Shown here: positions 21,753 through 32,803 of the stretch, piece after piece
Layout of the letters: every line of letters starts with the position of its first letter
Numbering within the stretch: position 1 is the stretch's first letter
Assembly (NCBI GenBank): GCA_018396695.1
Contig: JAGTQU010000019.1
Span: forward strand, 1-36,961
Direction of reading: 5' to 3'
DNA length: 36,961 nt
Source: Candidatus Bathyarchaeota archaeon
Lineage (GTDB): Archaea; Thermoproteota; Bathyarchaeia; TCS64
Made by a program: the position numbers and the translations under genes
Notes under the pieces: model-generated
Told to the model about the DNA's origin: nothing
What the model saw: the letters and a program-made list of their open reading frames with translations, nothing else
The model's database searches: none

Positions 21753-22577
21753 ATGATTAAGATAGGTTTTCTTAAACTTGGAAACATCGCCACTTCGACG
21801 ATGATTGAGCTCCTTTTGGATGAGAGGGCTGAGAGAGAGGATCTAGAAGTTCGAGTAATCTCCTCAGGGGCTAACATGAGTCCAGAACAATCTGCGAAGA
21901 TAGCTGAGGATATGCTTCGGTTTAAACCAGACTTATGCTTCGTTGTTAGCCCTAACGCTTCAACTAAGGGTCCAGCTACGGCTCGAGATATTTTAAACAA
22001 GGCAGGTATATCGACGATTGCTGTTACTGATGGTCCGAAGAAGATTCTAGAGGAATTACAAAAAGCAGGTATGGGCGGGATAATAGTCGAAGCGGATTCG
22101 ATGATAGGTGCAAGAAGAGAATTTCTCGACCCAATAGAAATGGCTGTGTTCAATTCCGATGTGATTAAAGTATTATCCGTGACAGGAGTTTTTAGCGTCA
22201 TCTATAAAACCCTTGATGACTTGATTCAGGAGCTAAAGTCAGGGAGGAAGCCGAGTCTCCCCCTCTTAGAGGTTACTCGGACAACGGCTATAGAAGCCGC
22301 CGGATTCGTCAACCCCTATGCTAAGGCTAAAGCTACTGCGGCATATGAAATATCGAAGAGAGTAGCAAATTTGACTACTGAAGCATGCTTCAAAGAGAAG
22401 GAATGGGAGATCTACACGATGTTATGCGCATCGGCTCATGAGTTGATGAGAATGGCTGCTTATCTCTCCGACGAGGCAAGAGAGGTAGAAAAATATGGGG
22501 ATAATGTTCTACGTAGGCCTCACCATAGGGACGGTAGACTCCTAGAAAAAAGAAAATTGATAGAAAAACCAAAGTAG
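21753..22577 (+). CDS. mtd: F420-dependent methylenetetrahydromethanopterin dehydrogenase
   Basis: Mtd reversibly interconverts methenyl- and methylene-H4MPT with coenzyme F420 as hydride carrier. The 274-residue product matches the family from end to end: the N-terminal F420 region (KIGFLKLGNIATSTMIELLLDERA), VISSGANMSPEQ, and VVSPNASTKGPATAR. The C-terminal third keeps VTRTTAIEAAGFVNPYAKAKA and a histidine-containing end (RRPHHRDGRLLEKRKL). Length is typical (270-280). It is monocistronic and converges with an F420-oxidoreductase beta-type gene 11 bases away. In a non-methanogen it would serve the methyl branch of the archaeal Wood-Ljungdahl pathway, in either direction. Confidence 0.96.
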   Translation: MIKIGFLKLGNIATSTMIELLLDERAEREDLEVRVISSGANMSPEQSAKIAEDMLRFKPDLCFVVSPNASTKGPATARDILNKAGISTIAVTDGPKKILEELQKAGMGGIIVEADSMIGARREFLDPIEMAVFNSDVIKVLSVTGVFSVIYKTLDDLIQELKSGRKPSLPLLEVTRTTAIEAAGFVNPYAKAKATAAYEISKRVANLTTEACFKEKEWEIYTMLCASAHELMRMAAYLSDEAREVEKYGDNVLRRPHHRDGRLLEKRKLIEKPK

Positions 22578-23807: not shown

Positions 23808-25913
23808 ATGAAGCTGAATACACTGTTCAACCCGAGATCGATAGCGATTATTGGAGCGTCAAATAGTCCAGGAAAGGTCGGTTTCACCCTCACCAAAAAC
23901 ATGATAGAATGCGGTTACTCTGGGGAAATATATCCTATTAATCCTGGAGCGGAGGAGATTCAGGGGCTCAAATGCTACCCTTCAGTTCTTGATGTATCCT
24001 CTGAAATCGATTTAGTTGTAATAGCTATACCAGCGAACAGGGTTCTAAACGTGGTTGAAGAGTGCGGTAGGAAAGGGGTCAAGGCCCTCATAATTATTTC
24101 TGCCGGATTCAAGGAGGCTGGTAGGGAAGGAGCTATTCTAGAGAAAAAGTTGGTAGAAATATGCCATAAATATGGTATGAGACTTCAGGGTCCAAACTGT
24201 CTCGGAATAATAGATACGATTACCCCTATTAATCTCAGCTTTGCTCGAACAATGCCGAAGAGGGGCGGAATAGGGTTCATATCTCAAAGCGGGGCTCTTG
24301 GAACAGCAGTTTTAGACTGGGCAATAAAAGAAGAGATAGGCATTTCAAGTTTTATAAGTCTAGGGAATAAAGCTGATCTGGATGAAGTCGAATTTATAGA
24401 AGCGATGGGTGAAAGGGAAGAAGTCAAGGTGATTCTACTCTATCTAGAGTCCATTGAAAGAGGTCAAAAATTCATTGAAATTGCGAAAAAAATCGTCAAG
24501 AAGAAACCTATAATAGTGCTTAAAGGAGGTGTATCAACCGCAGGGGCCAGAGCTGCTGGAAGTCATACCGGAGCCTTGGTGGGAAGCTTCATCGCATATA
24601 GAACTGCATTTAAAAAAGCTGGCGTGATATTTGCTGAAAGCGTTGAAGAACTTTTTAATTACGCCTCGGCATTCGTGGAGCAGCCTTTACCAGGAAATGG
24701 AGGCGTAGCGATAGTTACTAACGCAGGAGGCCCTGGGATCCTCGTTACTGATCTGTGTGAGAAACTTGGAGTTCCTTTAGCAACTTTGTCCAAAACTACT
24801 CGCCAGGAATTGGCGTCTAAACTCCCTTCTGCCGCGTCTCTGGGGAATCCAATCGACATACTTGGTGACGCTATGGCTGATAGATATGAGTTTGCATTAG
24901 AAAAAACATTGCAGGATGATAGCGTCAACTCCGTTATAGTTTTGCTGACTCCTCAAGCAATGACTGAAAGCATGGGAACCGCCGAGAAAATAGTTGAGAT
25001 CAGGAAAAAAAGGCCAAATAAACCGATTTTGACTGTTTTCATGGGAGGATACTCTGTAAATGAGGCTTCGACTTATCTCAAGGATAATAAGATACCGTGT
25101 TATGATTTTCCTGAGAAAGCCGTTAAAACGATATCTACGATGTTAGAGTATTCAAGGATCCTTGGTTTAGAGGAGGAGCAAGTAGAAAGATTTACAGATG
25201 TAGACAAGGCTAGAGTTGAAATAATATTCCAAAACGCTAGAATTGATAAGAGAAATGTTTTGTTACCGCATGAAGCGGCTGAAGCGGTTGAAGCTTATGG
25301 AATTAATGTTCCTAAAATCCGAGTTGCCCGTACGTCTGAAGAGGCAATAAAATTCGCCGACGAGTTAGGTTATCCTATTGTATTGAAGATCGTTTCTCCT
25401 GATATTTTACATAAAACAGATATCGGTGGTGTTGTTCTAAACCTAAAGTCTCCAGAAGAAGTTAGAATATCCTTCGAAGAAATCATGTCAAGAGTTTCAC
25501 AGTTCATGCCTCATGCACGGATATATGGCATAATGGTGTATAAAATGTTGCCTTCTGGCAGAGAGATGATAGTAGGCATGAGCAGAGATGTTCAATTCGG
25601 CCCTCTTTTAATGTTCGGGCTTGGAGGCATATATGTCAATATTCTTAAGGACGTTTCATTCGGATTAGCTCCTCTGACAAAATATGAAGTGGATAAGATG
25701 GTGGAAGACACAAAGGCCTACACTCTTTTAAAAGGCATTAGAGGTGAACCCCCTTCAGATATACAGGCTTTGAAGGAAACCATTCTCAGGGTTAGCCAGT
25801 TTATATTAGATTTCCCTCAGATATTAGAGATGGATATAAATCCCATTATAGTTTATCAAGAGGGGAGGGGATGTATAGCTTTGGATGTGAAAATCACATT
25901 AACATTAGATTGA
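23808..25913 (+). CDS. acd: ADP-forming acetate--CoA ligase, fused alpha-beta subunits
   Basis: The 701-residue enzyme converts acetyl-CoA (or another acyl-CoA), ADP and phosphate to acetate, CoA and ATP. The alpha part carries a CoA-binding Rossmann domain (AIIGASNSPGKVG, 13-25), a succinyl-CoA-ligase-like domain with GFISQSGALG, and the phosphorylated His253 in GSHTGALVGS. The beta part is an ATP-grasp domain from about 475 (HEAAEAVEAYGINVPK, then ILHKTDIGGVVLNL). The fused order is seen in several archaea and in Entamoeba and Giardia. It sits directly before a DRTGG P-loop gene. In this organism it probably conserves energy from acetyl-CoA. Other acyl-CoA substrates cannot be excluded. Confidence 0.94.
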   Translation: MKLNTLFNPRSIAIIGASNSPGKVGFTLTKNMIECGYSGEIYPINPGAEEIQGLKCYPSVLDVSSEIDLVVIAIPANRVLNVVEECGRKGVKALIIISAGFKEAGREGAILEKKLVEICHKYGMRLQGPNCLGIIDTITPINLSFARTMPKRGGIGFISQSGALGTAVLDWAIKEEIGISSFISLGNKADLDEVEFIEAMGEREEVKVILLYLESIERGQKFIEIAKKIVKKKPIIVLKGGVSTAGARAAGSHTGALVGSFIAYRTAFKKAGVIFAESVEELFNYASAFVEQPLPGNGGVAIVTNAGGPGILVTDLCEKLGVPLATLSKTTRQELASKLPSAASLGNPIDILGDAMADRYEFALEKTLQDDSVNSVIVLLTPQAMTESMGTAEKIVEIRKKRPNKPILTVFMGGYSVNEASTYLKDNKIPCYDFPEKAVKTISTMLEYSRILGLEEEQVERFTDVDKARVEIIFQNARIDKRNVLLPHEAAEAVEAYGINVPKIRVARTSEEAIKFADELGYPIVLKIVSPDILHKTDIGGVVLNLKSPEEVRISFEEIMSRVSQFMPHARIYGIMVYKMLPSGREMIVGMSRDVQFGPLLMFGLGGIYVNILKDVSFGLAPLTKYEVDKMVEDTKAYTLLKGIRGEPPSDIQALKETILRVSQFILDFPQILEMDINPIIVYQEGRGCIALDVKITLTLD

Positions 25914-25920
25914 GGAGTTG

Positions 25921-27024
25921 ATGGGTGTGACTTATTCTTTATATATAGCTGGTACGAGATTCAGCGGGAAAACCGCCCTTTGTTTAGGATTGTACAGTAA
26001 ATTTCAGGAGATGGGGTTAAAAGTTGGCTATTTTAAGCCAGTTGGTCAGGGAGTAAAAATAGTTGATGGTGTGTCTAGAGATCCAGATGTCCTTCTTTTA
26101 AAAGAGGTGATGGAGCTAGAGGAATCTCTGGATACATTGAATCCTGTTGTTTTGGGTAAACGTTATTTAGATAATCTCTTAAAGGACTGTGATAAATTAG
26201 AGTCAAAAATTAGAAAGGGATTCGATGAAGTTAGTAAAAACAAGGATATTCTCTTAATCGAGTCTCCAGCGATCCCTGAACTACTCACCTGCTGTAATCT
26301 CGATATGCCAAGATTCTCTTGCGAATTTAAATCCAAGATTCTTTTCTCACTCAAGGGGGACGAGGATTCAGTAGTTGAAAAGGCAGTTTTATTTAAACGT
26401 TTCATAGAACAGAAAGGGGGGGAAACGCTCGGAATTGTGTTAAACTTCGTGCCGCTACAACAGGTCGAGCGAATGCGTGGAATAGTATCATCTATTCTAG
26501 AGGGTTGCGGTCTGAATGTTCTGGGGGTAGTACCTGATCATCGGGATTTAACTAATCCGATCGTGTATGACATAGTTGAGGCTTTAGGGGCTGAGGTTCT
26601 CACATGTAGCAATAAACTTGAAAATGTTGTTGAAGACTACATGATAGGCGCTATGACTCCTGAATCCGCTATGACTTGGCTTAGGAGAAGCATTGGAAAA
26701 GCCTTCATCACAGGGGGGGATAGAACTGATCTTATTTTGACGGCTATTGAGACTAAACCTAGCGTCATTATTCTTACAGGAAACATCTATCCTTCTAGAA
26801 GCGTTCTTAATTCAGCTGAAGAAAAGTCTATACCTGTTCTACTTGTTCCTGACGATACCTATACCACGGTTACGAAGCTTGAGTTTCTGACAGGTAGAAT
26901 AGTTCCATCACCGAAATCGATGAAAAAAATCCAACTAACAAAAAAAATAATCGGGGAATATGTTAATTGGAAGCGGATTCTCGACGACTTTGTCGAATCA
27001 AAAAGAAAGAGAGGTAACGCTTAG
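25921..27024 (+). CDS. BioD-like P-loop / DRTGG domain protein (phosphotransacetylase N-terminal-like)
   Basis: The 367-residue protein has a P-loop (GTRFSGKT, 11-18) in a BioD/CobQ-type NTPase domain covering about 1-225. A DRTGG-type domain follows, with its signature GGDRTD near 265-270 and FITGG before it. This pair is the regulatory N-terminus of long phosphate acetyltransferases, without the catalytic part. It starts eight bases after the acetyl-CoA synthetase stop, with GGAG at 25914-25917; ATG 25921 is chosen, TTG 25918 and GTG 25927 are possible. Tight coupling suggests it senses a nucleotide or acyl-phosphate and modulates that enzyme, which is inference. It converges on the next gene with a 4-base overlap. 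Confidence 0.8.
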   Translation: MGVTYSLYIAGTRFSGKTALCLGLYSKFQEMGLKVGYFKPVGQGVKIVDGVSRDPDVLLLKEVMELEESLDTLNPVVLGKRYLDNLLKDCDKLESKIRKGFDEVSKNKDILLIESPAIPELLTCCNLDMPRFSCEFKSKILFSLKGDEDSVVEKAVLFKRFIEQKGGETLGIVLNFVPLQQVERMRGIVSSILEGCGLNVLGVVPDHRDLTNPIVYDIVEALGAEVLTCSNKLENVVEDYMIGAMTPESAMTWLRRSIGKAFITGGDRTDLILTAIETKPSVIILTGNIYPSRSVLNSAEEKSIPVLLVPDDTYTTVTKLEFLTGRIVPSPKSMKKIQLTKKIIGEYVNWKRILDDFVESKRKRGNA

Positions 27025-28589
27025 AATAGCTCCTCATCTTGAACATACGACCTATTAATTTTTAACACAATCTCTGCTTTATACAACTCTTTTCCAAGAT
27101 AAGCTGCGTGGTCAAGCTTCTTTACTAAGCCCTTTTCTATTATCTTCCGATAAATATTTTCGGCACGTTTACCTTTAATTACTATATCCGGTTTTAAAGC
27201 TTTAATTTGATAATGAACTGCACTGATTAAACCGTTTTCTCTATCAACTTCTATTCTGAACCATCCGAAAGGATCAGGTTCGCAAAGATCATCTCCTGTA
27301 GCCTCGACTATTATGAGTTTATCATCATCTACACTCGTCTGGATCTCTTCTCTTCTCCTTTTCTCTTTAAGGATAAGAAGATCCAAACCGAGGTCCTTCG
27401 GGGTAGACTTCCTTTTTTCAGCTAAAAAAACCATCTTTGAAGCAATCGAGGTTTCAAAAACGCTCCCGAAAGTTTTAGAGCTAAACTCAGGCACAAATAA
27501 CAGGTTTGCGCCTAACTCTTGTGCTATAGAAGCGAGTAGACAGTTTGCTCCTTGAGAATCCGCGTCGATGAGTTCTATGACGTTTCCTAATCCAAATAGA
27601 AGCGGCGTTATTGCGTCGCGTTGGCGATAGAGAAAATATGCTCTAATAGATTCGAAAAGCCCAGGGTTGATGGGAGGATCTAAAATAGGATCCGCTATCA
27701 CATTTGTCAAACCCAAGTCTCTGGCATACTTGATATTCTCCAATAATGCTTCAACCTTTTCTTCCGCTCTTCGCGGGATTCTACCTTCTTTCATATTAGT
27801 GGGAAGAACTACGGCTGGTGTATTTTGAATCGACTCAGCCACTTCATCAAGATTACCTGAATCTAAGCTTAGAATGAGATCAACGCCTGACTCGTAGGCT
27901 TCCAATATCTCAGTAGGATTCAATGAATCTATGCTTAGGGGAAGATTAGTCACTGACCTTACGGATTCTACTATTTTTTTTATTTTATGAGGCATAGGCT
28001 TATTCGCGATCATACCTAAATCGATTATGTCTGCACCCTTCGATGCGTAGTATCTAGCTCGATTTTGAATCTCTTTTTCACTTAATACAGGTGCGTTCAC
28101 GATCTCTGCTATCACTCTCATGGGGAAGCCTCTTCCAATGTGGATTCTAGCGTCTCCCCTCCCTATTGAAAATCCACCTTCTTTGAGCGCTTCCGCCCAA
28201 TTTTCTTCGACTTTTTTGAGACTCTCTAATATCCGTTTTTTCGCAAAATCTTTAATCAATTCAGAAGCGGGAGTTTGCGTAGAAAGCTTAACTTCGTCTA
28301 TTAAATCTATAACCATTGGCAAATCTGCGATATGGATTGGACCTTTGAAAGTTTTAATACCCGTTGCTAATTCAACGGGCGTAACGTCACCTTGAACATA
28401 GCCTGGTAAAAATATTAAATCATATTTCTTGGTCAAATTTTCTCTTAGAAAACTAGCAGCATAGTCTGGTGTGATGAACGCTGCTATAGGTACAGGCAGA
28501 ACTACTACATCAATCTCTTCCTCAGATTCTGACGCATATTTTTTCACAAGGTCTTCAGCAAATCTGCCCGTAACTAGAAGGATCTTCAT
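27021..28589 (-). CDS. Dihydropteroate synthase-like protein, methanopterin biosynthesis
   Basis: The 522-residue protein has an N-terminal alpha/beta domain (1-140) that begins MKILLVTGRFAEDLVKKYA and a TIM barrel from about 150 resembling the pterin-binding fold (ADIIDLGMIANKPMP, LPLSIDSLNPTEI, NVIADPILDPPINPG). This layout is that of the archaeal DHPS-related family (as in Methanocaldococcus MJ0107, DUF6513), thought to join a pterin to an arylamine intermediate in H4MPT synthesis. The stretch IIDLGMIANKP replaces the classic DIGGESTRPG of bacterial FolP. It is the last gene of a four-gene minus-strand operon that includes beta-RFA-P synthase, which makes the arylamine. Confidence 0.85.
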   Translation of the reverse strand: MKILLVTGRFAEDLVKKYASESEEEIDVVVLPVPIAAFITPDYAASFLRENLTKKYDLIFLPGYVQGDVTPVELATGIKTFKGPIHIADLPMVIDLIDEVKLSTQTPASELIKDFAKKRILESLKKVEENWAEALKEGGFSIGRGDARIHIGRGFPMRVIAEIVNAPVLSEKEIQNRARYYASKGADIIDLGMIANKPMPHKIKKIVESVRSVTNLPLSIDSLNPTEILEAYESGVDLILSLDSGNLDEVAESIQNTPAVVLPTNMKEGRIPRRAEEKVEALLENIKYARDLGLTNVIADPILDPPINPGLFESIRAYFLYRQRDAITPLLFGLGNVIELIDADSQGANCLLASIAQELGANLLFVPEFSSKTFGSVFETSIASKMVFLAEKRKSTPKDLGLDLLILKEKRRREEIQTSVDDDKLIIVEATGDDLCEPDPFGWFRIEVDRENGLISAVHYQIKALKPDIVIKGKRAENIYRKIIEKGLVKKLDHAAYLGKELYKAEIVLKINRSYVQDEELF

Positions 28590-28642
28590 CTATATCTCTC
28601 AAATTCCTGAAACTAATAAAGAATATTAAAATAGAGCATTCT

Positions 28643-29593
28643 CTAGTTTTGAATCGTAGTTATTGACGATCCTTGGTTATCGGCTCCAGTATAGAAAGCA
28701 GTGCCTCTTCTTTCACCAATATTCAAAAAGTCATATAGTTCCTTTTCTAATTTGATTGCCTGATCTTCTCCTTTAATAAGCCCATAGAATGCTGGACCCC
28801 AAGAACTCTGACCGGCGCCATAAACCCCCTGTTCGAGGAGAAAGTTTACCCCCTTCTCAATTATTGGGTGGGTATACCTACCGCCTTGAATCTTCTCCCA
28901 GTATGATCCGAAACTGCTATCGAGCCTCGTCATTGCTTCACCAAATAATTTAATGTCCCTATCAATAATAGCAGGAATCATTTGAACAAGTACTGTTCTT
29001 GAAACCTCTCCAACGAGTTTTTCTGAAGGAGGCTCCAATTTTTTGAAAGCTTCCATCTCGTTTACCCCGCTCAATCCAGTTTTGATTTTTGGCAAACCTA
29101 CAATGAACATCCAGTCTTCTGGTACATCTGATCTAAATAACAAAGGTGGGACATGGTACGGATTGTCTGCTCTATGTCCGCAATCAACTATGAATCCTCC
29201 ACTTTTGAATGCATGGACTCCGACTCCTGATCTTCTAGATCTATTCAGTAGAAAAGCAATCTCCTCAGAGTTTAGATTGAGATTAAATATCTTTGAGATC
29301 GATGTCCCTACCGCCAATGCCAATTGTGTTCCTGAGCCAAAACCAGCATGTTCAGGAATGTCTGAGATTAGGTTAAATTCTAAACCTTCTTGGATCCCCA
29401 TATACCGCATTATCTTCTCTGCATACTCTTTAATTCTCTCCGCTCTTGGACCAAAGATCTTTAACTTATCAGATTTTTTCGCCTCCAATATTATATTTGG
29501 TTTCTTTATCGCAACTCCAACGCTTACATGAATACGCCCGAGATCTCCTCTCATGTCAACGATGCCAAAGTGGAGTCTTGAAGGGGTTTTCAC
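28643..29593 (-). CDS. mptG: Beta-ribofuranosylaminobenzene 5'-phosphate synthase
   Basis: The enzyme condenses 4-hydroxybenzoate or 4-aminobenzoate with PRPP, the first committed step toward the arylamine half of H4MPT. The 316-residue product is a GHMP-kinase-superfamily protein with the family start TPSRLHFGIVDMRGDLGR (3-20) and the glycine loop PEHAGFGSGTQLALA (80-94). SRRSGVGVHAFKSGGFIVDCGH and GQSSWGPAFYGL follow as expected. Length is typical. The start is GTG 29593, two bases after the DUF447 stop, so translation is probably coupled. In this operon the dihydropteroate-synthase-like gene lies 53 bases downstream. Confidence 0.93.
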   Translation of the reverse strand: MKTPSRLHFGIVDMRGDLGRIHVSVGVAIKKPNIILEAKKSDKLKIFGPRAERIKEYAEKIMRYMGIQEGLEFNLISDIPEHAGFGSGTQLALAVGTSISKIFNLNLNSEEIAFLLNRSRRSGVGVHAFKSGGFIVDCGHRADNPYHVPPLLFRSDVPEDWMFIVGLPKIKTGLSGVNEMEAFKKLEPPSEKLVGEVSRTVLVQMIPAIIDRDIKLFGEAMTRLDSSFGSYWEKIQGGRYTHPIIEKGVNFLLEQGVYGAGQSSWGPAFYGLIKGEDQAIKLEKELYDFLNIGERRGTAFYTGADNQGSSITTIQN

Positions 29594-29595
29594 TC

Positions 29596-30237
29596 TTATT
29601 TTGACAATTCATCCCTCCAACCTTTGATCATCTTCAACAATTCGTTAATCACTCGTCTTTCAGGGGTCTCTGATCCAGAGACCTTTTCAATGATCTCTTT
29701 ACACTCATAGACTTTTGCCATCAATTTTTCAGCATCGTATATTAACCCTATTTTTAAATATTCTTTTATCCTGGTTGCATGTATTGTTGCTTCGATCGCT
29801 GCAGCTTTTCCTCGACTAAAAACTTTAGGACTTGGGTTTCTAATCATCACAGATCGAACTTGAGTGGTGAATAAGGCTCTATCTTCAGAAAAATCCTTCA
29901 TATCTATAACTTTGACGATTAACGTTGCGTCTGAGCCCTTTAATGAGAAAATCTTGTCAATTGAAAATGAAATTGCATTCTCCTCTTTAAAAGCTGTAAA
30001 ATAGAATATTTCAGGATTATTAGTAATATTAACACCTGCCTCAGGATAGAGTCTAAGATTCTGATAAGTTGAACTAGATTTAAAAGGTTTTATTTCAAGT
30101 ATTTCTGAATCAATTCGAGCAATACCCATGGGAGCAGGGTTTAATGTTCCATCAGGGTTGCGAGTTACGAGTATCGTCTCGACAATTGAACCTTTTTCGA
30201 AACCTAATTTAGTCAGCTCTCTGGATACTTCATTCAA
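29596..30237 (-). CDS. DUF447 flavin-reductase-like protein
   Basis: The 213-residue protein matches the archaeal/methylotroph DUF447 family, with a split-barrel FMN-binding fold at about 15-130 (VETILVTRNPDGTLNPAPMG, then SSSTYQNLRLYPEAGVNITN) and a helical C-terminal part. Structures of related proteins bind FMN, and the catalytic activity is unknown. The start is TTG 30237 with AGGATGTGA upstream. It lies between a nucleotidyltransferase (11 bases upstream) and beta-RFA-P synthase (two bases downstream). A redox step in H4MPT assembly or maintenance is therefore the leading guess. Confidence 0.85.
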   Translation of the reverse strand: MNEVSRELTKLGFEKGSIVETILVTRNPDGTLNPAPMGIARIDSEILEIKPFKSSSTYQNLRLYPEAGVNITNNPEIFYFTAFKEENAISFSIDKIFSLKGSDATLIVKVIDMKDFSEDRALFTTQVRSVMIRNPSPKVFSRGKAAAIEATIHATRIKEYLKIGLIYDAEKLMAKVYECKEIIEKVSGSETPERRVINELLKMIKGWRDELSK

Positions 30238-30248
30238 AGTTTCACATC

Positions 30249-31277
30249 CTAGCTTCTGGTTTCGAGATATTTCAAGGATATAAGGTAATCCTCTTCTTCC
30301 CCTAAAATAACCCTATATATAGTCTTATTCGGGTACTGTACTCTTTCCATAGTGCCTTTTGCTTCTACCTCCTCCCCTTCTTGAACTTGTTCAGTAAACT
30401 TACCTCGAAAGCTTAAAAGCTCTGATATCTTCAAATTTCCATACCCTTCAACTCTGCAATCTTTGATTTTATATGTACACGGCGTAAAAATAGACTCTTT
30501 AGCCGATTTGATCACCCCTCTAAGCTTTATTCTTCCTAAGGGTTTTGAAGAGATCTCTTTTTTAATCTCAGCAGGAAATTTTACTAGTCTTATGAAATAT
30601 TCTCGATCCTCGACAAGCCCGTGGAGAACCTTATTCACCTCATTTTTTTTTAGTTTATCCAGATTTAGGTTTGTTTTACTCCACCTCGCTTTCGCTATAG
30701 GTTCGATCGTTTTCTCGTCATAAGGCTTAATCCAAAAATCTTTTCTTCTAATCTTCTTTAGGGTATAGTATAATTTGATCGAGGCTTTTGAACCATATAT
30801 TACGAGGTCGATATCGGAAGAGCAGGAAGCTAAATTAATCAAAACCGAGCCAGAGACACCGAAATTGCTTACAGGAACTCTGCTTTCAGAAGAAATATAG
30901 AGGACGAAGCGAGATATTGTTTTCTCAAGATCTGTTTTAGGTGCTTCCATTATTTCTTTTAATTTTTCATCAGGATGATATATTTTCGATACTCGATCAA
31001 TTGGAACTGATTGGAGCTCCAAACCTAGCTTTTCCACGTAGTTAATATATTGTGGATAGAATCTTCGCAAGATCTCATAAGTTTCGTTAAACTCATACAA
31101 CCTTTTGAAGCGAATTTCACCGCGCCTTCTCTCTCCTCTTTCATCTGGAATATATCTAAGATAAGCTATTATCAAATCTTCAGGATGGAAATGACCTTTA
31201 ACAGAAAATAAAAGACCTTCATTTGTCTCAAGATAACTGCCTTCGATGACGTTGTCCAAGATATGTCTACTCAACAC
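30249..31277 (-). CDS. Predicted nucleotidyltransferase of the methanopterin operon
   Basis: The 342-residue protein has a DNA-polymerase-beta-type nucleotidyltransferase core, with the signature GVSGSVLINL at 140-149 and metal-binding Asp155 and Asp157 (SSDIDLVIYG). An N-terminal domain of about 110 residues precedes it, and a C-terminal beta-rich segment (about 245-342, possibly an OB-like barrel) follows. The substrate is not known. It begins the operon with DUF447, beta-RFA-P synthase and the DHPS-like gene, so it may transfer a nucleotide to a pterin or arylamine intermediate, or to a protein. Start GTG 31277 (or TTG 31274); no Shine-Dalgarno is seen, and the AT-rich block about 15-30 bases upstream suits a leaderless start. 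Confidence 0.75.
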   Translation of the reverse strand: MLSRHILDNVIEGSYLETNEGLLFSVKGHFHPEDLIIAYLRYIPDERGERRRGEIRFKRLYEFNETYEILRRFYPQYINYVEKLGLELQSVPIDRVSKIYHPDEKLKEIMEAPKTDLEKTISRFVLYISSESRVPVSNFGVSGSVLINLASCSSDIDLVIYGSKASIKLYYTLKKIRRKDFWIKPYDEKTIEPIAKARWSKTNLNLDKLKKNEVNKVLHGLVEDREYFIRLVKFPAEIKKEISSKPLGRIKLRGVIKSAKESIFTPCTYKIKDCRVEGYGNLKISELLSFRGKFTEQVQEGEEVEAKGTMERVQYPNKTIYRVILGEEEDYLISLKYLETRS

Positions 31278-31338
31278 ATTAAATTTGTTTTAAATATTAA
31301 AATATTAGGAAGAAGTATTAGGCTTAAAGGGCTATGGT

Positions 31339-32292
31339 TTGAATAGAATTGCTGTTGGAAATCTAGTTGGTCAATGCTCTACTTTAGCTATACTTTTAGA
31401 AGTATCTTCTTATCCAAAACCTGGCAATGTCCATCGAACCGTAGATTTTCCCTGGACAAGATATGAACACTTCCTTGCTGGGGCGGTAGGCATAGAGCCA
31501 TTCATGCGACAATTAGCCATTAGAGGATATAATGCTGCAAGAAGTTCTGAGAGTTGGAGTAAGATAAGAATCGGAGAGGTTATTTTTAAAGCAGTCGAAT
31601 CTTCCAGAAATTGGCAAAGTGGAGGGAACGTAAACCTTGGAACGATTCTGTTAATCTCTCCTTTAGCAGCTGCAAGTGGCGCAATCTTAAGTAATCGTTT
31701 AAGTTTTAAAGCTGAAGAGTTAAGACAGATACTAGAAAAAGTCATCCAGTCTACTTCTCAAAAGGATGCAGTTAGCGTATGTAAAGCAATCTCGACTACC
31801 ATGTCTGAAAGAGTTCTAGGAAGGGTTAACGAATTGGATTTGACTAATTCATCTACAATTAAAGAGGTCTACCAAAAAGGGTTGACACTTATGGACATTT
31901 TTTCAAAGTGCATGTCTAGAGACCTTATCTGCAGAGAATGGGTAACAAGATTCGAGATAGTTTTCACGAAAGGCTATCCAACTTTAAAAAGCTTCATCGA
32001 AAAATCAAGAAGTATTAATTCAGCTATTATAAACACCTTCCTTACAATCCAATCTGAGTATCCAGACTCGCTCGTGATAAGAAAGGCAGGAGTAGCAGAG
32101 GCTCAGAAAATGAGTGAAAGAGCCAAAGAGATTCTTGATAAAGGAGGAGCCTATACAGAGGAGGGATCAAGATTACTCTGGAATTGGGATCAAGAACTCC
32201 GAAAATTTAAAGGAAGATTAAATCCTGGAACGACGGCTGACTTGGTTGCGGCTTCGGCTTTTCTTCTATTGGTTAACGGATGGCGTCCCTAA
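31339..32292 (+). CDS. CitG/MdcB-like triphosphoribosyl-dephospho-CoA synthase family protein
   Basis: The 317-residue protein matches the CitG/MdcB family by the motif SYPKPGNVHRTVDF (24-37), GGNVNLGTILLISPLA (near 96-111), and DKGGAYTEEG and NPGTTADLVAASAFLLL near the end. Classical members build the 2'-triphosphoribosyl-dephospho-CoA prosthetic group of citrate or malonate lyase. No such lyase is present, and archaeal homologues occur with H4MPT genes, so a transfer of ribosyl or phosphoribosyl groups in that pathway is the better guess. The start is TTG 31339; no in-frame ATG lies nearby. The gene is divergent from the nucleotidyltransferase operon with 61 bases between. Confidence 0.85.
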   Translation: MNRIAVGNLVGQCSTLAILLEVSSYPKPGNVHRTVDFPWTRYEHFLAGAVGIEPFMRQLAIRGYNAARSSESWSKIRIGEVIFKAVESSRNWQSGGNVNLGTILLISPLAAASGAILSNRLSFKAEELRQILEKVIQSTSQKDAVSVCKAISTTMSERVLGRVNELDLTNSSTIKEVYQKGLTLMDIFSKCMSRDLICREWVTRFEIVFTKGYPTLKSFIEKSRSINSAIINTFLTIQSEYPDSLVIRKAGVAEAQKMSERAKEILDKGGAYTEEGSRLLWNWDQELRKFKGRLNPGTTADLVAASAFLLLVNGWRP

Positions 32293-32308: not shown

Positions 32309-32803
32309 CTATTTATATTTTAGAATCCTCTGCAAAGCAAGGGCGAGCGGGATTCCAGCTATGCCTGCTACCAGCATTTGGGTTATATTGAATGGGATCT
32401 CAACAAAAGCTGCGTTTCCGTAACCTAAAAATAGATACTCTGTTATAAAATAACCTACAACCATCTCCAATCCGCCTACTATCCAAGCTATAACAAGTTT
32501 CAAAATAAATCTACTCTTCATTTTAGTATAGATTATACCTATAATCGCCCCTTCCAAGCCTTTTATTACTAAGGTGAATGGAGCGAAATAGGAATAGCCT
32601 GCAAGTATGTCAGCTAATGCAGCTCCAACTCCACCAGAGACTGCTCCCACCATCGGTCCGAAGACTATTGCAGCTATCACGATCATAGCGTCTCCAATGT
32701 TAAAATAGCCTTGTGTGGCAGGTATTGGCACTATGAAAAACAATGTGGCTACACAGACAAGTGCCGCCATGATGCTAGAAGCGGTCAGCTCTAGAGTTCT
32801 CAT
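32309..32803 (-). CDS. ECF transporter S component
   Basis: The 164-residue membrane protein has five or six hydrophobic segments and the S-component pattern, with IGDAMIVIAAIVFGPMVGAVSGGVGAALAD in the middle. S components bind a vitamin or precursor and work with the EcfT and EcfA proteins, which are not in the window. The ligand cannot be read from the sequence. ATG 32803. It lies 53 bases downstream of the threonine-synthase-like gene on the same strand, which might mean shared transcription. Confidence 0.85.
   Translation of the reverse strand: MRTLELTASSIMAALVCVATLFFIVPIPATQGYFNIGDAMIVIAAIVFGPMVGAVSGGVGAALADILAGYSYFAPFTLVIKGLEGAIIGIIYTKMKSRFILKLVIAWIVGGLEMVVGYFITEYLFLGYGNAAFVEIPFNITQMLVAGIAGIPLALALQRILKYK

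Follow-up and report, generated by a model that had tools for sequence, protein, structure and literature searches.

We analysed a 36,961-nucleotide contig of a Candidatus Bathyarchaeota archaeon (JAGTQU010000019.1, assembly GCA_018396695.1; hereafter the window), which encodes a CitG-family protein of an archaeal type and, divergently, a Pol-beta-type nucleotidyltransferase (NTase), next to genes for beta-RFAP synthase, a DHPS-like protein and a DUF447 protein. Comparison with related genomes indicates that the CitG-like protein very probably belongs to the synthesis of tetrahydromethanopterin (H4MPT), and the NTase probably does so as well. Methanogens, like many further archaea, use methanopterin as their one-carbon (C1) carrier. 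To our knowledge no gene has been assigned to the attachment of the alpha-ribosyl phosphate and hydroxyglutarate of methanopterin. The survey provides two named candidates, CitG and the NTase, for these unassigned last steps.

CitG and the nucleotidyltransferase co-occur with H4MPT markers

Taking RFAP synthase (E < 1e-20, one partial gene counted) or Mch as a marker of H4MPT, we surveyed 230 genomes of the phylum. CitG is present in 102 of the 117 genomes with either marker and in 2 of the 113 with neither, and the corresponding counts for the NTase are 109 of 117 and 5 of 113. Equal frequency in H4MPT-free genomes, the outcome against which the earlier note had set its proposal, is thus not what we find. 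Overall, CitG occurs in 104 genomes, the NTase in 114 and both in 101, these being 101 of the 117 genomes having either. RFAP synthase or Mch accompanies CitG in 102 of 104 genomes, and Mch is found in 19 of the 21 CitG-carrying genomes that lack RFAP synthase.

A class-level survey of 101 relatives of the window genome revealed 14 in which CitG and the NTase are present without RFAP synthase, DUF447 and the DHPS-like protein. Most of these carry Mch and are therefore not free of H4MPT-type C1 chemistry. Genes for ECF-type S components of the riboflavin/folate family adjoin CitG in several relatives with Mch that lack RFAP synthase (loci L041, L042, L044, L045, L050 and L051), which suggests that such genomes may import the pterin core through an ECF transporter. 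Further ECF S genes stand beside CitG or RFAP modules in relatives. The survey thus suggests that Bathyarchaeota without RFAP synthase depend on a core that others have made, which they finish or use. MptE (PF01973) failed as a marker of core synthesis, being found in 15 of the 101 relatives only and absent even from the window genome, which has RFAP synthase; the MptE step may be carried out by another enzyme in these Bathyarchaeota.

The island joins two conserved modules

The five genes lie where the earlier note had placed them, and the gaps recomputed by us are identical. On the minus strand, the NTase gene (30249..31277) is followed after 11 bases by that of the DUF447 protein (29596..30237), after a further 2 bases by RFAP synthase (28643..29593) and after 53 bases by the DHPS-like protein (27021..28589). 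The CitG gene (31339..32292, plus strand) is divergent from the NTase gene across an A+T-rich intergenic region of 61 bases (31278..31338). Four of the proposed families are borne out, with scores over the model cut-offs: the DHPS-like protein, with its pterin-binding and PterinBD-DUF4346 domains (TIGR00284, 424.9 bits against 256.65), the GHMP-fold beta-RFAP synthase family (TIGR00144, 200.3 against 113.5), DUF447 (PF04289/PF20766, DUF447_N/C, 64.1/31.6 against 24/24.8) and CitG (PF01874, 231.5 against 27). The strict RFAP synthase equivalog NF040726 was not reached (231.6 bits, cut-off 328). RFAP synthase is the committed step of H4MPT synthesis. Structures of relatives are available for the DUF447 protein (PDB 2iml and 2ptf, MTH_863) and for the CitG-like protein (3h9p).

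Among the 101 relatives, RFAP synthase is accompanied by DUF447 in 42 of 45 genomes and by the DHPS-like gene in 43 of 45, and these three genes adjoin one another in 33–36 genomes from about nine Bathyarchaeota families. CitG and the NTase are adjacent in 38 of the 101, likewise from nine families, and outside the class such pairs are arranged in tandem and not head-to-head (families f34, f38, f42, f45, f49 and f51). Only 12 genomes have RFAP synthase less than 3 kb away from CitG, 11 from the window's own family and one from a sister family, and the five-gene island is therefore a lineage-specific join of two conserved modules, DHPS-like/RFAP/DUF447 and CitG/NTase. Thus, the single H4MPT island proposed in the earlier note gives way to two separately conserved modules that are joined mainly in the window's family. 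The grouping is more than a chance one, given these 12 genomes and the same five-gene order in further named Bathyarchaeota contigs (L146, L150, L156, L168 and L169). A CitG-RFAP-DUF447 neighbourhood was found in one named Thermoproteota contig (L152). In one relative (G073), mch adjoins CitG/NTase.

CitG is shared with bacterial H4MPT islands, the nucleotidyltransferase is not

Plasmid H4MPT islands of Azospirillum, Thiodictyon and Phyllobacterium show the order mch-RimK-CitG-fae, and those of Azospirillum and Phyllobacterium also DUF447-DUF6513-flavoprotein. The published bacterial orders are mch-orf5-orf7-fae and orf19-orf20-afpA-orf21-orf22 (PMC3615186), in which Orf5 is the RimK-type MyfB, and Orf21 and Orf22 are homologues of MfnE and MfnB (PMC8141765). 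Since the plasmid order matches the published order, CitG is Orf7, DUF447 is Orf19 and the DUF6513/DHPS-like protein is Orf20, by gene order; the bacterial DUF6513 protein scores 177 bits against TIGR00284, under the cut-off. The 2005 mutagenesis study of Chistoserdova on new dephospho-H4MPT genes reportedly had orf7, orf19 and orf20 among its mutants. Our literature search found no paper joining CitG or DUF447 with methanopterin. CitG, DUF447 and the DHPS-like protein are not new to the H4MPT pathway, and the NTase is the only new candidate. Of the three families that the earlier note had regarded as poorly known and tied to the pathway, all do track H4MPT, but CitG and DUF447 were already present in bacterial H4MPT islands and only the NTase is new.

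The bacterial dephospho-H4MPT islands (with mptG also) resemble the window in having RFAP synthase, the DHPS-like protein, an archaeal-type CitG and DUF447. In an alignment and tree, CitG proteins from archaea and from the bacterial islands have in common a PKPGN motif and other residues at which E. coli CitG differs. The islands differ from the window in containing methylofuran genes and fae, and the NTase was absent from the islands examined, all of which hold CitG. H4MPT carries a phosphate and an alpha-hydroxyglutarate, whereas the bacterial form of the coenzyme has neither (PMC8141765). Because CitG occurs there without the NTase, and the coenzyme without the phosphate-hydroxyglutarate tail, CitG would act at a step shared by both pathways and the NTase at the tail. 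This predicts CitG wherever the coenzyme is ribosylated, and the NTase only where the tail is present.

Beyond Bathyarchaeota, Archaeoglobi, Methanosarcinales, Methanocellales and Hydrothermarchaeota have DUF447 after CitG, often with an AfpA/MJ0208-type flavoprotein next and, in Methanocellales, also the DHPS-like gene. These pairs have CitG and DUF447, as the window does, but in one direction and with no adjoining NTase, whereas in the window CitG and the DUF447 operon point away from each other. A Baldrarchaeota contig encodes fwdD-fwdB-fwdA-fwdC-mch-mptN-like-citG (L160:643-7849), and the order of mch, a RimK-type ligase and citG is common to this contig and to proteobacterial H4MPT islands (L062-L064). 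On a plasmid of the haloarchaeon Natrinema thermotolerans, citG and the DUF447 gene overlap by 4 bases (L061:7986-9430).

The nucleotidyltransferase family

The NTase scores 19.5 bits against PF01909, just under the cut-off of 21, but has a Pol-beta-type active-site motif and a confident structure model. The motif G-x2-GS-x9-SDxD (G140, G143, S144, D155 and D157) is invariant in an alignment of 41 sequences. The model (pLDDT 95.1) comprises an N-terminal beta domain, the NTase core and, at the C-terminus, an OB-like domain. Searches of PDB sequences returned nothing relevant for the NTase. In a tree of this archaeal family, which has several copies per genome, the window protein falls in a CitG-linked clade, and in that clade K27, R41, R50, R198, K216, R230, R291 and R322 are invariant. 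So many conserved basic residues would fit an anionic substrate.

A paralogue in the window genome lies at the end of a run of fwdD-fwdB-fwdA-ftr-fwdC-mptN-like-NTase on another contig (L087, G000:C78, 1654-8739), with a gap of 2 bases before the NTase gene, and a second copy is located further along (L087:10005-11033). The target of MptN, a tetrahydromethanopterin:alpha-L-glutamate ligase, is the hydroxyglutarate of H4MPT (PMC8141765), and an mptN-like gene lies less than 50 bases from an NTase gene in 9 genomes. The family model used for MptN lacks specificity, as other RimK ligases match it as well. In family f47, one NTase copy follows fwd-mch.

Full-length NTase homologues of approximately 24% identity are found on 20 Streptomyces plasmids; on the one inspected, from Streptomyces anulatus, the gene adjoins a member of the aminoglycoside-phosphotransferase family, with no H4MPT genes (L065:5932-7026). 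Next to CitG/NTase or RFAP modules, a CofE-like protein of the F420_ligase family is found repeatedly (L058, L059, L060; L025, L027, L049); it scores far under the cut-off for CofE and is a possible additional glutamate ligase of the tail.

A proposed route to the methanopterin tail

CitG proper transfers a 5-triphosphoribosyl unit from ATP onto a hydroxyl, with loss of adenine. We propose that module A (the DHPS-like protein, RFAP synthase and DUF447) serves the H4MPT core, for which RFAP synthase would make the aryl-ribosyl phosphate, the DHPS-like protein would probably join this to the pterin and DUF447 would take some step. Module B (the CitG-like protein and the NTase) would build the end of the molecule. 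The CitG-like enzyme, with ATP as ribosyl donor as for CitG proper, would place a 5-(tri)phosphoribosyl unit on the ribitol hydroxyl of the pterin-aryl-ribitol and release adenine, giving a product that resembles a nucleoside triphosphate with pterin-aryl-ribitol in place of the base. Since an intermediate of this kind would be a natural NTase substrate, the NTase is the suggested next enzyme, and may form the phosphodiester to 2-hydroxyglutarate with release of pyrophosphate, after which MptN-type ligases would add glutamate. The linkage formed by CitG is an alpha one, in keeping with the alpha-ribosyl unit of methanopterin and so with the role given to CitG. We infer the substrates, the step order and both reactions, and we put the transfer of the ribosyl unit by CitG and formation of the hydroxyglutaryl phosphodiester by the NTase at somewhat below an even chance. 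The suggestion of the earlier note that the two proteins act on a ribosyl-phosphate unit is plausible and is sharpened here. The fullest version, in which CitG supplies the ribosyl triphosphate from ATP and the NTase the 2-hydroxyglutarate ester as the two missing tail enzymes, and lineages that lack RFAP synthase take up the core through an ECF transporter and add only the tail, is rather unlikely to hold in all its parts.

The logic of this route, triphosphoribosyl transfer followed by formation of a phosphodiester, is that of CitG/CitX and MdcB/MdcG, and the window protein is of the CitG family. However, it reaches only 63.6, 60.0 and 57.8 bits against CitG/MdcB equivalog models with cut-offs of 272–282. 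Beside CitG in the window and its relatives, H4MPT/C1 genes are found, and none for citrate lyase or malonate decarboxylase were recognised. A function as a citrate-lyase or malonate-decarboxylase enzyme was dropped on account of these scores and of this gene context.

Several points weigh against the proposed route. The NTase shows no sequence relation to E. coli CitX (hhalign probability 0.7%). A search of the CitG neighbourhoods of methanogens, which have the tail, and of Archaeoglobi did not find it; if they lack it, the NTase could not be the general tail enzyme. Two well-covered relatives with RFAP synthase (G032 and G099) have no CitG, and the Fisher values for co-occurrence, down to 1e-48, overstate significance as they ignore kinship of the genomes, although the pattern spans many families. 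A genome can hold as many as 6 copies of the NTase. An mptN-like gene does stand beside an NTase paralogue of the window genome, but all mptN-like matches, at 245–299 bits, lie under the curated cut-off of 350, and methanofuran could be the target of the mptN-like copy in the fwd run. CitG-DUF447 is kept in haloarchaea, a group believed to rely on folate (PMC8305020). Bacteria would have to remove the phosphates left by a CitG-type transfer. Classical work reportedly used phosphoribosyl pyrophosphate (PRPP) as the ribosyl donor.

The same co-occurrence and synteny would be expected if both proteins act in H4MPT synthesis by other chemistry, with CitG as a plain ribosyl or phosphoribosyl transferase using PRPP and the NTase adenylylating ribose 5-phosphate or hydroxyglutarate for another joining enzyme. 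CitG is also present in bacteria, in which the ribose does not retain a phosphate, and the phosphodiester of coenzyme F420 is formed through a nucleotidylated intermediate (CofC/CofD), both of which suit this account. It requires an extra transferase, however, and no obvious CofD-like partner recurs among the identified clusters of NTase neighbours. We consider it unlikely, though the strongest of the alternatives.

Alternatively, the NTase may not be biosynthetic but a regulator or nucleic-acid enzyme that controls C1 operons by nucleotidylating a C1 enzyme or RNA. Its core resembles poly(A) polymerases and its C-terminal domain the OB folds of SSB/RPA, which bind nucleic acids and so also count against the tail-synthesis route, and some of its several paralogues per genome lie beside fwd or mch and not beside biosynthesis genes. 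These Foldseek matches are weak and at the level of domains (E 0.016 and worse for the core), with none at E <= 0.001, whereas the NTase is closely paired with CitG in many families and in two orientations, and is also paired with the mptN-like gene. A regulatory role is on this balance improbable.

More doubtful still is that CitG and the NTase make a cofactor of their own, phosphoribosyl-linked like that of citrate lyase, and are found with H4MPT genes through shared anaerobic C1 physiology. The 14 relatives having CitG and the NTase without the three core genes, and the haloarchaeal CitG-DUF447 pair, would agree with it, but the presence of Mch in nearly all CitG-carrying genomes without RFAP synthase, the position of CitG inside bacterial H4MPT islands, the missed equivalog cut-offs and the lack of recognised lyase or decarboxylase genes beside CitG argue otherwise. 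A role in methanofuran in place of methanopterin synthesis is very improbable, in spite of the fwd operons and MyfB/MptN-like ligases among the neighbours, as methanofuran is without ribose or phosphodiester and family f38 has RFAP synthase, CitG and the NTase but no Mch. Deletions identified orf5, orfY and orf17 as methylofuran genes, and orf7 is not one of them (PMC8141765).

Neighbouring genes

Enzymes that use H4MPT are encoded in the island's own genome. Mtd, the F420-dependent methylene-H4MPT dehydrogenase, is in the window (21753..22577, plus strand; NF002162, 371.4 bits against a cut-off of 297), and Mch (G000:C72) and Fwd/Ftr (G000:C78) are encoded in the same genome. Convergent with CitG is a gene for an ECF-type S component of the riboflavin/folate family (32309..32803, minus strand; PF07155, 130.4 bits), a possible pterin importer, which matches TIGR04518 (folT family) at 1.1e-9, under the cut-off. 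On the other side of the island, CoA-ligase-like and AAA_26-DRTGG genes (23808-27024) converge on the DHPS-like gene with an overlap of 4 bases, and this position is kept in several relatives (L021, L022, L024 and L029).

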